From a virus: 40,662 bases of DNA. Of the stretch, positions 13,995-31,106 are shown piece after piece. Both the position numbers and the translations under genes were made by a program. The notes under the pieces are model-generated. The model did no database searches and had not been told where the DNA came from. It worked only from the letters and a program-made list of their open reading frames with translations. The stretch spans positions 1 through 40,662 of IMG/VR virus record IMGVR_UViG_3300046533_000099; one strand, 5' to 3'. Position 1 is the stretch's first letter; each line of letters opens with the position of its first letter.

Positions 13995-14004
13995 AGTCTG
14001 TGAG

Positions 14005-14077
14005 TGCCTGCCCCGGGATTCGAACCCGGACCGTCGGCGACCTAAGCGCCGTGTCTCTGCCGTTGGACTAGACAGGC
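14005..14077 (-). tRNA. tRNA with UAG anticodon (Leu, CUA codon), class I shape
   Basis: 73 nt. Acceptor GCCTGTC pairs with GGCAGGC; anticodon stem CGGCG/CGCCG with loop CTTAGGT gives anticodon TAG; T arm CCGGG-TTCGAAT-CCCGG; discriminator A; no encoded CCA. D stem only 3 bp (GTC/GAC). Bacterial tRNA-Leu normally has a long variable arm, but here it is 5 nt. The codon read, CTA, is rare in Streptomyces but frequent in this phage. Confidence 0.85.
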
Positions 14078-14084
14078 TCGTTTG

Positions 14085-14157
14085 CTGGCACGGCAGGACT
14101 CGAACCTACGACTAACGGATTAACAATCCGTCGCTCTACCGACTGAGCTACGCGCCA
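14085..14157 (-). tRNA. tRNA-Asn (GUU)
   Basis: 73 nt cloverleaf: acceptor TGGCGCG/CGTGCCA, D arm GCTC/GAGC, anticodon stem ACGGA/TCCGT with loop TTGTTAA (anticodon GTT), T arm GTAGG-TTCGAGT-CCTGC, discriminator G. CCA not encoded. Seven bases from the tRNA-Leu gene, so co-transcribed. Confidence 0.93.
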
Positions 14158-14649: not shown

Positions 14650-16440
14650 TCACAGGGCCGCTAGCTCCGCCTCGCTCGGTTCGACGGCGTCGTCGTCGAC
14701 GGGAAGCGGTCGCCAATCGAGCGTCACGCGTTCCTCGACGGGAATGAACTTCTTCGTTTCCGGGTCACGCCCCGCGCCGATGGAGACGCCGGTCAGAAAC
14801 AGGTCGAGGAACGACCGCCGCTTGAATACGTCCCACTTGGACCAGGGCGAGCCGGGGCCGATCGGGTCGTCGTCGACGGCGAACCATTCCGTCGGGATGC
14901 GAACCGCATCCGCCGTCTGCACGTCGAGGGTGGCGAGTCGGCCCGTGCACTCGTCCTCGAATTGCCGGTACTGCGTCATGGTCGCGCGCCACATGTCGAG
15001 TTCTTCGCGACCCCGGTACAGCCCCGCTTTGCGGTCCGCCTGAAGCTCAGCGATCGACTGCCGGACGTGGTCGAGGTGAGACGCCGTCTCTCGCCGTTCC
15101 TCCGCGACCCCGGCGAGGTCGGTCTGAGCCGCAAACCGTATCGCCGCAGCCTCGACCCATGCGCGGTCGTCGGCGTCGTCCATGTCGGCGTTCGCGAGCC
15201 GTGCCCACACCCGGTTAGCTACGTAGTCGTCTGCGAGGTCGCGCCGGATCGCGAGGCCGCCGTGACCCTTCGGGTTTGAGCACATGTACGACCCTGCGCT
15301 TAGCGTGCCGTTCCGGCCCTTTGTGCCGCCTGTCTGTCCCATGGACCCGAGACACATTCCGCAGCGTGTGAACCTCCATCCGCTAAGCAGTGTCGGCGTA
15401 ATCTCCGCCCCTCCGGGTCTGACGTCGGGGCGTGAACGCTTCTTGCGTGCTTCCTGTAGTTCGAGCCACTTAGCACCCGTGATGAGCCCCCTATGGGGCG
15501 CGAGGGGCTTTCCTGTCTCGTCGCGGGCGATCACGTTCACGTGTGCCTTACCGCGCTTGACCCGGTCGACGGCGAAGCCTCCGATGGCGGGGTGGTTGAG
15601 AATCCAGCGGACGGTTTGTGCTCGCCATCGGATGGCGTCGTCCTCGCCGGACACCCGTCGGGCTTTGATTGATTCCAGCCGCTTAGGGGTGGCGCGTCGT
15701 GCGGCGTTGCCCGGGGCCGGAACGTTCTCCTTTTCGAGGGTTACCGCAATGCTGTTGTCGGTCTGCCCGCTGAACGACATTTCGATCATGCGCATGACGG
15801 TTTCGACGTGATCGGGATTGTCGTCGTCGGGTTCGAGGACGGAAACGACCAGGTTTCCAATCTGTTCGCGGGCGGCGCGCATTCCGTAGACAGCGGAGCT
15901 TGAATGGTGCCCGCCGACGGCTTTGATTTCGTCTTTCGCGCCCTTGAGTCGCTCGGCCTTAATGTCGCTGTCCTGCTTAGCGAGGGCAGCGATAAGAGCG
16001 AAGATCGCAACGCCGATCGGCGAGGACGTGTCGAGGAACGGTTCAAGCGCCGACACGAACCGCACGCCGTGCGCCTTGAATTCGCGGTCTATGTCGAGGG
16101 CATCGTGTGCACCCTTGCGCGTGAGCCGGGAAAGCTCATTGACGATCACCACGTCTACCTCACCGGCGCGTACGGCTTTCATGAGTTCCTCGAACCCGGG
16201 GCGGATCACCTTCGGGTCCCACCCGGAGCGCCCGACGTCCTTGAACACGCGTTCAGGGGCGACCTCCCACAGGACACCGCCCGCCGACCGGGAAGCGGCG
16301 ACGGCCGCGCATGCGGACACCTGCGCCTCGGGGCTCGCCTCGGATGCGTCGGGGCGTGCTTTCGACTGCCGGGCGTAGATCGCCACGCGTACGGTGTCCA
16401 TCAGGTGGGCGGGCGTGTTGGGGGAAACCATGGGTGCCAT
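14650..16440 (-). CDS. int: Large serine integrase, phiBT1-like
   Basis: 596 residues from ATG 16440 (MAPMVSPNTPAHL), chosen because it aligns residue for residue with the phiBT1 integrase start as I remember it; an in-frame extension to 16533 would read through attP. No good RBS is visible. Catalytic domain: YARQS with nucleophile Ser26, LSRLTRKGAHDALDID, and IALIAALAKQDSD-type segments. Then the recombinase domain (WRAQTVRWILNHPAIGG), a zinc ribbon (CGMCLGSMGQ ... CSNPKGHGG) and a coiled coil (VAEERRETASHLDHVRQ). Catalyses attP x attB integration; reversal needs the directionality factor encoded at 30414-31106. Confidence 0.95.
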   Translation of the reverse strand: MAPMVSPNTPAHLMDTVRVAIYARQSKARPDASEASPEAQVSACAAVAASRSAGGVLWEVAPERVFKDVGRSGWDPKVIRPGFEELMKAVRAGEVDVVIVNELSRLTRKGAHDALDIDREFKAHGVRFVSALEPFLDTSSPIGVAIFALIAALAKQDSDIKAERLKGAKDEIKAVGGHHSSSAVYGMRAAREQIGNLVVSVLEPDDDNPDHVETVMRMIEMSFSGQTDNSIAVTLEKENVPAPGNAARRATPKRLESIKARRVSGEDDAIRWRAQTVRWILNHPAIGGFAVDRVKRGKAHVNVIARDETGKPLAPHRGLITGAKWLELQEARKKRSRPDVRPGGAEITPTLLSGWRFTRCGMCLGSMGQTGGTKGRNGTLSAGSYMCSNPKGHGGLAIRRDLADDYVANRVWARLANADMDDADDRAWVEAAAIRFAAQTDLAGVAEERRETASHLDHVRQSIAELQADRKAGLYRGREELDMWRATMTQYRQFEDECTGRLATLDVQTADAVRIPTEWFAVDDDPIGPGSPWSKWDVFKRRSFLDLFLTGVSIGAGRDPETKKFIPVEERVTLDWRPLPVDDDAVEPSEAELAAL

Positions 16441-16493
16441 GTCTTGATTCTGCTGCATCACTGCTCTGACCTGCGCTTTCGTGACCGATTCTT

Positions 16494-16545
16494 TGTGATG
16501 GTTAGTTACCCATGGAAGGTGATCCATAAGCAACTAACCAGCACC
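16494..16545. other. attP: Attachment site attP, phiBT1-like
   Basis: Imperfect dyad immediately upstream of int: arms GTTAGTT (16501) and AACTAAC (16532), inner TGGA (16513) and TCCA (16523) around AGGTGA, so the centre is GT at 16519-16520. From memory, the phiBT1 attP shares TGGA-N6-TCCATGGG, AACTA and GGTGCTGG in the same register. Serine integrases recombine at a central dinucleotide; GT is used by phiBT1. Confidence 0.8.
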
Positions 16546-16586
16546 GTATCAGGGCCCGTGTCGGCACAGGGGATCGGGACAGCGGG

Positions 16587-16620
16587 AAGCCCCGCCCGGC
16601 GAGGGTGCCGAACGGGGCTT
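16587..16620 (-). terminator. Terminator-like hairpin upstream of attP
   Basis: AAGCCCCG and CGGGGCTT arms, 18-nt loop; no T run on the minus strand. Separates the 16672 operon from int. Confidence 0.6.
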
Positions 16621-16671: not shown

Positions 16672-16884
16672 CTATCCGGCCGCTATGGGTTTGCCGATCC
16701 TCGCGAGCCGGTAGGCGCCGTGAAGCCTTGAACCTTCCTCGCAACCCTTGCTCGGCCCCTTAGAGCTGACACAGACCGGGCAGGGCGGCGTGACTCCGTC
16801 CCTGGGGTGCACGTGGTCGACGTACGCCGCCCACGCTGTCTCGTAACCTGCCTGGGGGACCGTCGGCCCCGTTCCCTCGCTCAT
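16672..16884 (-). CDS. Small Cys-containing protein next to attP
   Basis: 70 residues. ATG 16884 overlaps the upstream stop as ATGA; the longer frame to 17019 lies within the neighbour. Segment YVDHVHPRDGVTPPCPVC has an HNH-like DH and a CPVC knuckle, but no complete nuclease motif. Last gene before attP, co-translated with the zinc-ribbon protein. No known function; a regulator or metal-binding partner is possible. Confidence 0.6.
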   Translation of the reverse strand: MSEGTGPTVPQAGYETAWAAYVDHVHPRDGVTPPCPVCVSSKGPSKGCEEGSRLHGAYRLARIGKPIAAG

Positions 16885-17111
16885 GCCGACGCCCGCTTTC
16901 CGAGTAGGTCGGCGCAGTAGCCACAACCTTTGATCACGCCGGAATTCGACGCTGATTCGAAGATCGCGATTACCACGAGGGTTTGAGTCTCTCCGCCGCA
17001 CAGAATGCAGAAAGCCCACGGCTTCGGGTAAACGATCTTCGCTTGCCCGTCGCCCGTAGGCTCAGAGTCAAGCGACATTCGCACGGTGTCGACCGTGTCC
17101 GCTTGGGTCAT
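16881..17111 (-). CDS. Zinc-ribbon-like small protein
   Basis: 76 residues, ATG 17111 with AGGAC 8 nt upstream. Two CxxC pairs (FCILCGG near 35, GCGYCADL near 63) indicate a treble-clef or zinc-ribbon fold of about 30 residues. Coupled by ATGA to the next gene. Such phage zinc ribbons bind nucleic acid or RNA polymerase; the role here is not known. Start choice is well supported. Confidence 0.65.
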   Translation of the reverse strand: MTQADTVDTVRMSLDSEPTGDGQAKIVYPKPWAFCILCGGETQTLVVIAIFESASNSGVIKGCGYCADLLGKRASA

Positions 17112-30413: not shown

Positions 30414-31106
30414 TTACTCGGCGATCGCGTCGTTATAGCTGCGGATGTTGTCGAGAACCGGCTTCAGGTAGGACACGTGCCGACCCTTCTTCGTCGTGTA
30501 CTCGACGAGTTCGAGTCGGAGGGTCGCGACGGCTTCGCCGCCGACACGGGCGAGGTCGTTCTCGTACTCGTGCAGCACTTCGGCGAGCGTCCACGAACCC
30601 GACTGGAATCGGAACGACCCGAGATCGGGATCGTCGGCGAGCCGGAACGTGATGTTGATCGACGGCGACGGACCGACGTAATCCTTCGCCGCCTGCTTGC
30701 GCTCAGCGAAGAGAGCCGGGCAACCACACGGCCGACCCGCCTTCTCGTCGGGGCTCAGGAACTCGACGCCATCACAGTGATGGACCAGCTTGGACCGGTT
30801 CCACAGCTTCATATCCGACCGGATCGCCTTGACGCCGTCCAGGATCACCGGAACGGCATTCGCGGCCGTCAGAACCTCGATGAAGTTCTCGTTCGGCGAG
30901 TCGGTCTCGTCCGGCACTCCGCCGAAAAGCTGAGCGACGGCATCGGCGACGACCCGGTCGCCGGTCGTGATGCGCCACTCAGACAGCGACTCAGGCTGTC
31001 CATCGACCTGACGGCCGGAATGGAACCGGCCGACCGTGCCGTCGGAGTAGTTCGCCCGGGGCTTCGGTGCGGCGTCAGGGTCGGTCTCGAAGATGCGAAG
31101 TGCCAT
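30414..31106 (-). CDS. Recombination directionality factor, phiC31 gp3-like
   Basis: 230 residues, ATG 31106 with GGAGAGAGC upstream. The N-terminus (MALRIFETDPDAAPKPR, then VGRFHSGRQ, LSEWRITTGD and AQLFGG) is characteristic of the gp3-like family; phiC31 and phiBT1 gp3 bind integrase and switch it from integration to excision. A C-G-C pair (PCGCPALF) and KGRHVSYLKPVL follow. Located in an early lytic operon behind P5, as expected for an excision factor. Family recognition is from memory, so not absolute. Confidence 0.75.
   Translation of the reverse strand: MALRIFETDPDAAPKPRANYSDGTVGRFHSGRQVDGQPESLSEWRITTGDRVVADAVAQLFGGVPDETDSPNENFIEVLTAANAVPVILDGVKAIRSDMKLWNRSKLVHHCDGVEFLSPDEKAGRPCGCPALFAERKQAAKDYVGPSPSINITFRLADDPDLGSFRFQSGSWTLAEVLHEYENDLARVGGEAVATLRLELVEYTTKKGRHVSYLKPVLDNIRSYNDAIAE

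Follow-up and report, generated by a model that had tools for sequence, protein, structure and literature searches.

A probable attP with a reversed core in a phiBT1-related phage

A dyad directly upstream of the large serine integrase gene (int) in a 40,662-base virus record from IMG/VR (hereafter the window, i.e., the whole stretch of DNA analysed) is, with a probability that we put at roughly 85%, the attP with which a temperate Streptomyces phage related to phiBT1 joins an attB in the SCO4848 gene, int lying along that gene. The attP sequence, the relation to phiBT1 and the junctions and polarity of integrated relatives were observed; that Int binds and cuts there, which attB the window uses and in which direction it inserts are inferred from these. 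Under this model, Int dimers would bind both arms and cut at the central dinucleotide, which reads AC in int direction and GT on the opposite strand. The cut attP would be joined to an attB of the type TGGATC-AC-(T/C)TTCG near codon 24 of the host SCO4848. The prophage would then lie with int in the SCO4848 direction, at the promoter side of the host gene, because the central dinucleotide decides how the sites are joined; phiBT1, with its core reversed relative to int, would go in the other way round. In phiBT1 excision, the central dinucleotide is described as the sole determinant of the outcome (PMC3836970).

The attP sites of serine integrases, the target of phiBT1 and the dinucleotide rule are already known; our searches of the open-access literature turned up no account of polarity differing naturally within the phiBT1 family, nor of the carried SCO4848 genes described below. 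For phiC31, Smith, Till and Smith are said to have switched integration polarity in the laboratory in 2004, by the same rule but with engineered rather than naturally differing sequences. In Streptomyces and beyond, the phiBT1 integrase serves as a standard tool. A naturally occurring relative whose arms are similar but whose core is reversed amounts to an experiment of nature on the rule that the dinucleotide sets direction.

The dyad beside the integrase gene

The window Int aligns with phiBT1 Int over its full length (382/596 identical, 64%), as an earlier note on this DNA had claimed, and carries Resolvase N-terminal (PF00239) and Recombinase (PF07508) domains, both above cut-off, at the size of a large serine integrase (~600 aa). 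The int reading frame stays open further upstream, across attP, and we infer the start codons given in Table 1 from an RBS-like sequence common to relatives. On the + strand the dyad reads TGGTTAGTTAC-CCATGGAAGGTGATCCATAAG-CAACTAACCA, with its centre between 16519 and 16520, and its TGGA-N6-TCCA core occurs only once in the whole window; the coordinates, the core and the central GT on this strand are as the earlier note gave them.

The bare dyad is within chance: 15/22 positions pair, 16 positions in the window score equal or higher, and the maxima of 20 Markov-shuffled windows ranged from 14 to 17. Its significance comes from position and homology, and it is because of these, rather than its pairing strength, that we identify it as attP. 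That is, the dyad is flanked by the int start on one side and by a GC-rich hairpin farther upstream on the other, as is the annotated phiBT1 attP; both sites are followed by GAAAGCGCAGGTCAG and then int; and the two align with 36/46 arm bases identical. A comparable dyad recurs ahead of int in relatives, and the proposal of a phiBT1-type attP adjoining int and sharing arm sequence thus holds, the window having the short dyad directly upstream of int that characterizes this type. The GC-rich inverted repeat was not among the elements reported by an automated scan.

Table 1. Features of the window around the predicted attP, and the gp3 homologue
Feature	Position	Strand	Remarks
attP dyad (predicted)	16494..16545	.	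int-frame left arm 16521-16545, right arm 16494-16518
Core TGGA-N6-TCCA	16513..16526	.	int-frame TGGATCACCTTCCA; conserved in L004-L006
Predicted crossover dinucleotide	16519..16520	GT on +, AC in int direction	from phiBT1 alignment and both S. natalensis prophage junctions
Large serine integrase (Int)	14650..16461	-	probable start GTG 16461 or ATG 16458, behind AGGTCAG
RBS-like AGGTCAG ahead of int	16466..16472	-	many relatives have a similar sequence here
-10-like TACGGT (by eye)	16543-16548	-	beside left arm, pointing across attP
GC-rich inverted repeat (AAGCCCCG...CGGGGCTT)	16587..16620	.	upstream of attP as read in int direction; by eye resembles a terminator
gp3 homologue (phiBT1 recombination directionality factor)	30417..31106	-	53% identity; predicted activity

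Outside the integrase region, the window phage is, judged by its sequence, a partial relative of phiBT1. Homologues of the phiBT1 primase, polymerase, exonuclease and gp3, the last described as the recombination directionality factor (RDF) of phiBT1 (PMC3836970), share 53-67% identity, unlike the terminase large subunit and portal (31-40%) and the phiBT1 major capsid protein, for which no counterpart was detected in the window at E 1e-3. Just downstream of int, the window encodes tRNA-Leu (tag) and tRNA-Asn (gtt) on the minus strand (14004-14157), and phiBT1 has an annotated tRNA-Lys in the corresponding neighbourhood of its int. A search of 18 genomes with the window ORF at 16672-17019 gave no match.

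Reversed core and match to SCO4848

Read in the direction of int, the window attP is GGTGCTGGTTAGTTGCTTATGGATC-AC-CTTCCATGGGTAACTAACCATCACA and that of phiBT1 (Lomovskayavirus BT1, AJ550940) is GGTGCTGGGTTGTTGTCTCTGGACA-GT-GATCCATGGGAAACTACTCAGCACC, the GT core of phiBT1 being published (PMC5937489). The window core (TGGATC-AC-CTTCCA) is a near reverse complement of the phiBT1 core (TGGACA-GT-GATCCA), with the central N6 identical at 0/6 positions unturned and at 4/6 turned, and by this comparison the core is clearly reversed relative to int; that is, the window has AC where phiBT1 has GT in int direction. The arms outside the central six appear to run like those of phiBT1 (36/46 identical unturned vs. 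33/46 turned), an orientation that is weakly determined because the arms are near-symmetric. The earlier note had the arms turned relative to the core in comparison with phiBT1; that difference stands, but in the int frame the turned element is the core, and the arms give a slightly better fit when left as they are. Placement and arms are alike in the two phages, whereas the reversed core predicts opposite polarity in SCO4848.

We compared the 18-bp attP cores with 10 native SCO4848 attBs in both directions. The window core was identical at 11-12/18 positions with int along the gene and at 6-7 against it, and the phiBT1 core at 7-8/18 along and 11-12 against. The longest word that the window shares with the attBs is TGGATCAC (8 bases, sense), and the longest that phiBT1 shares with the antisense strand is AGTGATCCA (9 bases), which includes the published GT core; the crossover region of phiBT1 is given as 9 bp (PMC5937489). 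In sequence, therefore, the window core matches SCO4848-type attBs in the sense direction of the gene and the phiBT1 core in the antisense direction.

Nine phage records hold an intact attP, and seven of these (the window, its near-copy L004, L005 and L006, which share its core, and L038, L039 and L043) have AC in int direction; the others are phiBT1 (GT), the only GT-type attP seen, and L007 (CA). By this count it is not the window that is the odd one, AC being the common polarity in the group. The cores of L038, L039 and L043 contain GACCAC and match the attB type of another genus, that of genome G003, in which TGGACCAC occurs in 18/29 genes read, which suggests that the attP core follows the host attB. 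The related attP of L007 (9866-9917 of that record) has the core TGGACTCAGGTCCA with its CA centre and fits SCO4848-type attBs poorly in both directions (6-8/18).

Integrated relatives and the history of polarity

Loci with related integrases were collected from bacterial genomes, and 22 integrated loci, whose Int is 53-77% identical to that of the window (best segment), entered the polarity count, one of them (L041) being a viral contig that contains a junction. Left out were L022, L023 and L024 (37-39% identity) and the fragment L029, all with other upstream sequence, as well as L105 and L106 (43% relatives), the distant matches L050-L063, the remnant L030, and L042 (96% identical to phiBT1 Int) and L035, whose sequences begin at int. 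The genomes drawn from the genus numbered 392, and a second draw was apparently identical.

At 20/22 loci the N-terminal piece of SCO4848 lies upstream of int in the same direction; 15 of these pieces are clear (E <= 2e-12) and five decayed (E 2.5e-6 to 0.18), by E values from a small database that held the upstream stretches of the integrated loci only. No SCO4848 piece was found upstream of int in L028 and L098, and the C-terminal half expected there for the phiBT1 polarity was found at 0/22 loci. The severed host gene belongs to the SCO4848 family of membrane proteins (NCBIfam, from one intact native gene and one carried copy) and is cut at codon 24. Relatives with a readable junction agree with AC in int direction, and the 41.4-kb prophage of S. 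natalensis ATCC 27448 (L010/G001) can be read at both of its junctions, which lie 41,415 bases apart: the near one reads TGGATCAC-CTTTCAC...int and the far one GTTAGTTGAGTGTGGATCAC-TTTCGTC, running into TTTCGTCAAGAATCTG of SCO4848. This prophage resembles the window in its AC core in int direction and in its SCO4848 target, predicted for the window, and differs in carrying its own full-length SCO4848 copy, for which the window has no match. The junction and int start of L030, outside the 22, also lie along the gene in the AC polarity, one 42-residue int piece being inverted. Among the integrated relatives found there was no lysogen of the window's own clade (the window, L004, L005 and L006), and none of GT polarity was found in the genomes with related integrases. 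The earlier suggestion that the reversed orientation could affect polarity is borne out in the relatives, none of which is arranged like phiBT1; the SCO4848-type attB predicted for the window agrees with their junctions and with the core match.

On an Int tree of 26 rows, phiBT1, L042 and L035 form a group (100/99) nested in a clade of 18 rows (99/100). Wherever a site can be read in the rest of this clade, L007 excepted, it has AC in int direction, as it does in the more distant L019, L041, L038, L039 and L043. Because phiBT1 nests inside an AC group, the window has the common and probably older polarity. Most parsimoniously, polarity would have changed once, on the phiBT1 lineage, at a point on the branch left unplaced by the unreadable sites of L042 and L035, and the tree suggests that phiBT1 is the unusual member of the family. 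L007 is nearest to the window clade (87/97), and its different core indicates that attB can change.

Could the dyad instead be an operator or terminator of int? Dyads of such quality are not rare in the window, yet in S. natalensis both junctions map to the homologous centre, and the relatives' junctions largely refute this reading, which we regard as extremely improbable. Scarcely more credible is the proposal that the arms rather than the dinucleotide set direction, so that the window would integrate like phiBT1: the arms do fit slightly better unturned relative to int (36/46 vs. 33/46), but relatives with the same core polarity lie along SCO4848, and the dinucleotide is described as the sole determinant for phiBT1 excision (PMC3836970). 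It is also unlikely, though less so, that the attP is correctly identified and the target is another gene, as drift of the core in the window clade might bring about; L007, whose core fits SCO4848-type attBs in neither direction, speaks for this, whereas the fit of the window core to the Streptomyces-type attB (11-12 of 18), the readable junctions of the relatives in SCO4848 (20/22) and the GACCAC cores, which fit the natives of another genus as if following the host, speak against it.

The alternative that deserves the most weight concerns how the reversal arose, i.e., that the whole ~50-bp attP and not the core alone was turned in one lineage. With near-symmetric arms both readings score nearly alike, but collinear arms are ahead by 2-5/46 positions in 9/10 comparisons with phiBT1 and tie in one (L043), these 10 rows being related to one another and two of them assembled from half sites. 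We consider a turn of the whole site possible, although the less probable account; the favored reading of an attP that joins SCO4848 with int along the gene is the same in either case.

The carried SCO4848 gene and possible selection on polarity

Many integrated relatives (L009, L011, L013, L015, L016, L019, L025, L076 and others) carry an additional SCO4848 gene of full length. It lies just within the far junction and runs antisense to the native pieces; in seven elements, 95-109 bases separate its start from the first codon matched in the severed end of the native gene. Among 22 genomes, picked for holding integrated relatives or remnants and hence not random, a full-length SCO4848 match was found in 22/22 and a second full-length one in 0/22, and in 11/22 the C-terminal native piece lies 46-105 bases from the carried copy on the opposite strand. 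No SCO4848 gene was found in the intact-attP records (0/9: the window and phiBT1, searched whole, and L004, L005, L006, L007, L038, L039 and L043, searched in part). The carried copy likely replaces the broken SCO4848, letting the elements persist, and how phages cope with insertion into a useful gene thereby becomes a question open to testing. The vectors pNG1-4, designed to prevent the damage that phiBT1-type insertion does, likewise include a gene copy, that of SCO4849 (PMC7460540).

The carried gene may come from another genus, since codon 18 is TCN in 29/29 genes read from the genus of G003 (one of which, L142, looks like a carried copy) and TCC in the native fragment of L019; it is TCN in 22 carried genes and AGC in 10 native ones. 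Carried genes form one group with the 10 hosts only, and no longer do so (three changes) when the G003-genus genes are added. When 19 carried genes are compared with 10 native Streptomyces genes, 6/7 near-fixed base differences fall in codons 15-24. We rejected recoding of the carried gene to escape its own integrase: the 36-bp attB span holds 3/7 of these differences and ranks 32 of 181 sliding windows, and TCN occurs also in the G003-genus genes and the L019 fragment.

A -10-like TACGCT, comparable to that of the window (Table 1), is present in 6/8 far junctions of integrated relatives and absent in L019 and L076; a consensus promoter scan at attP found no promoter. Such an element could be of use to int while the phage is free, and to the severed SCO4848 and SCO4849 once it is integrated. 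It is tempting, if rather doubtful, to think that integration polarity is under selection in the family and that phiBT1, in reversing its core, lost the arrangement of promoter and replacement gene. With the window polarity, the host SCO4848 promoter would feed int, the left-arm element would face the severed SCO4848 end and SCO4849, and long-lived integrated forms would gain the full-length replacement gene.

Integrated elements range from 41.4 kb (S. natalensis) to ~2.2 kb (L016), with L025 and L030 as smaller remnants. L016 (9866-12289) is reduced to an integrase with an open frame and the carried SCO4848 gene, and L030 (9333-10318), flanked by the two native SCO4848 pieces, is a ~0.7-kb remnant that keeps an intact carried copy.
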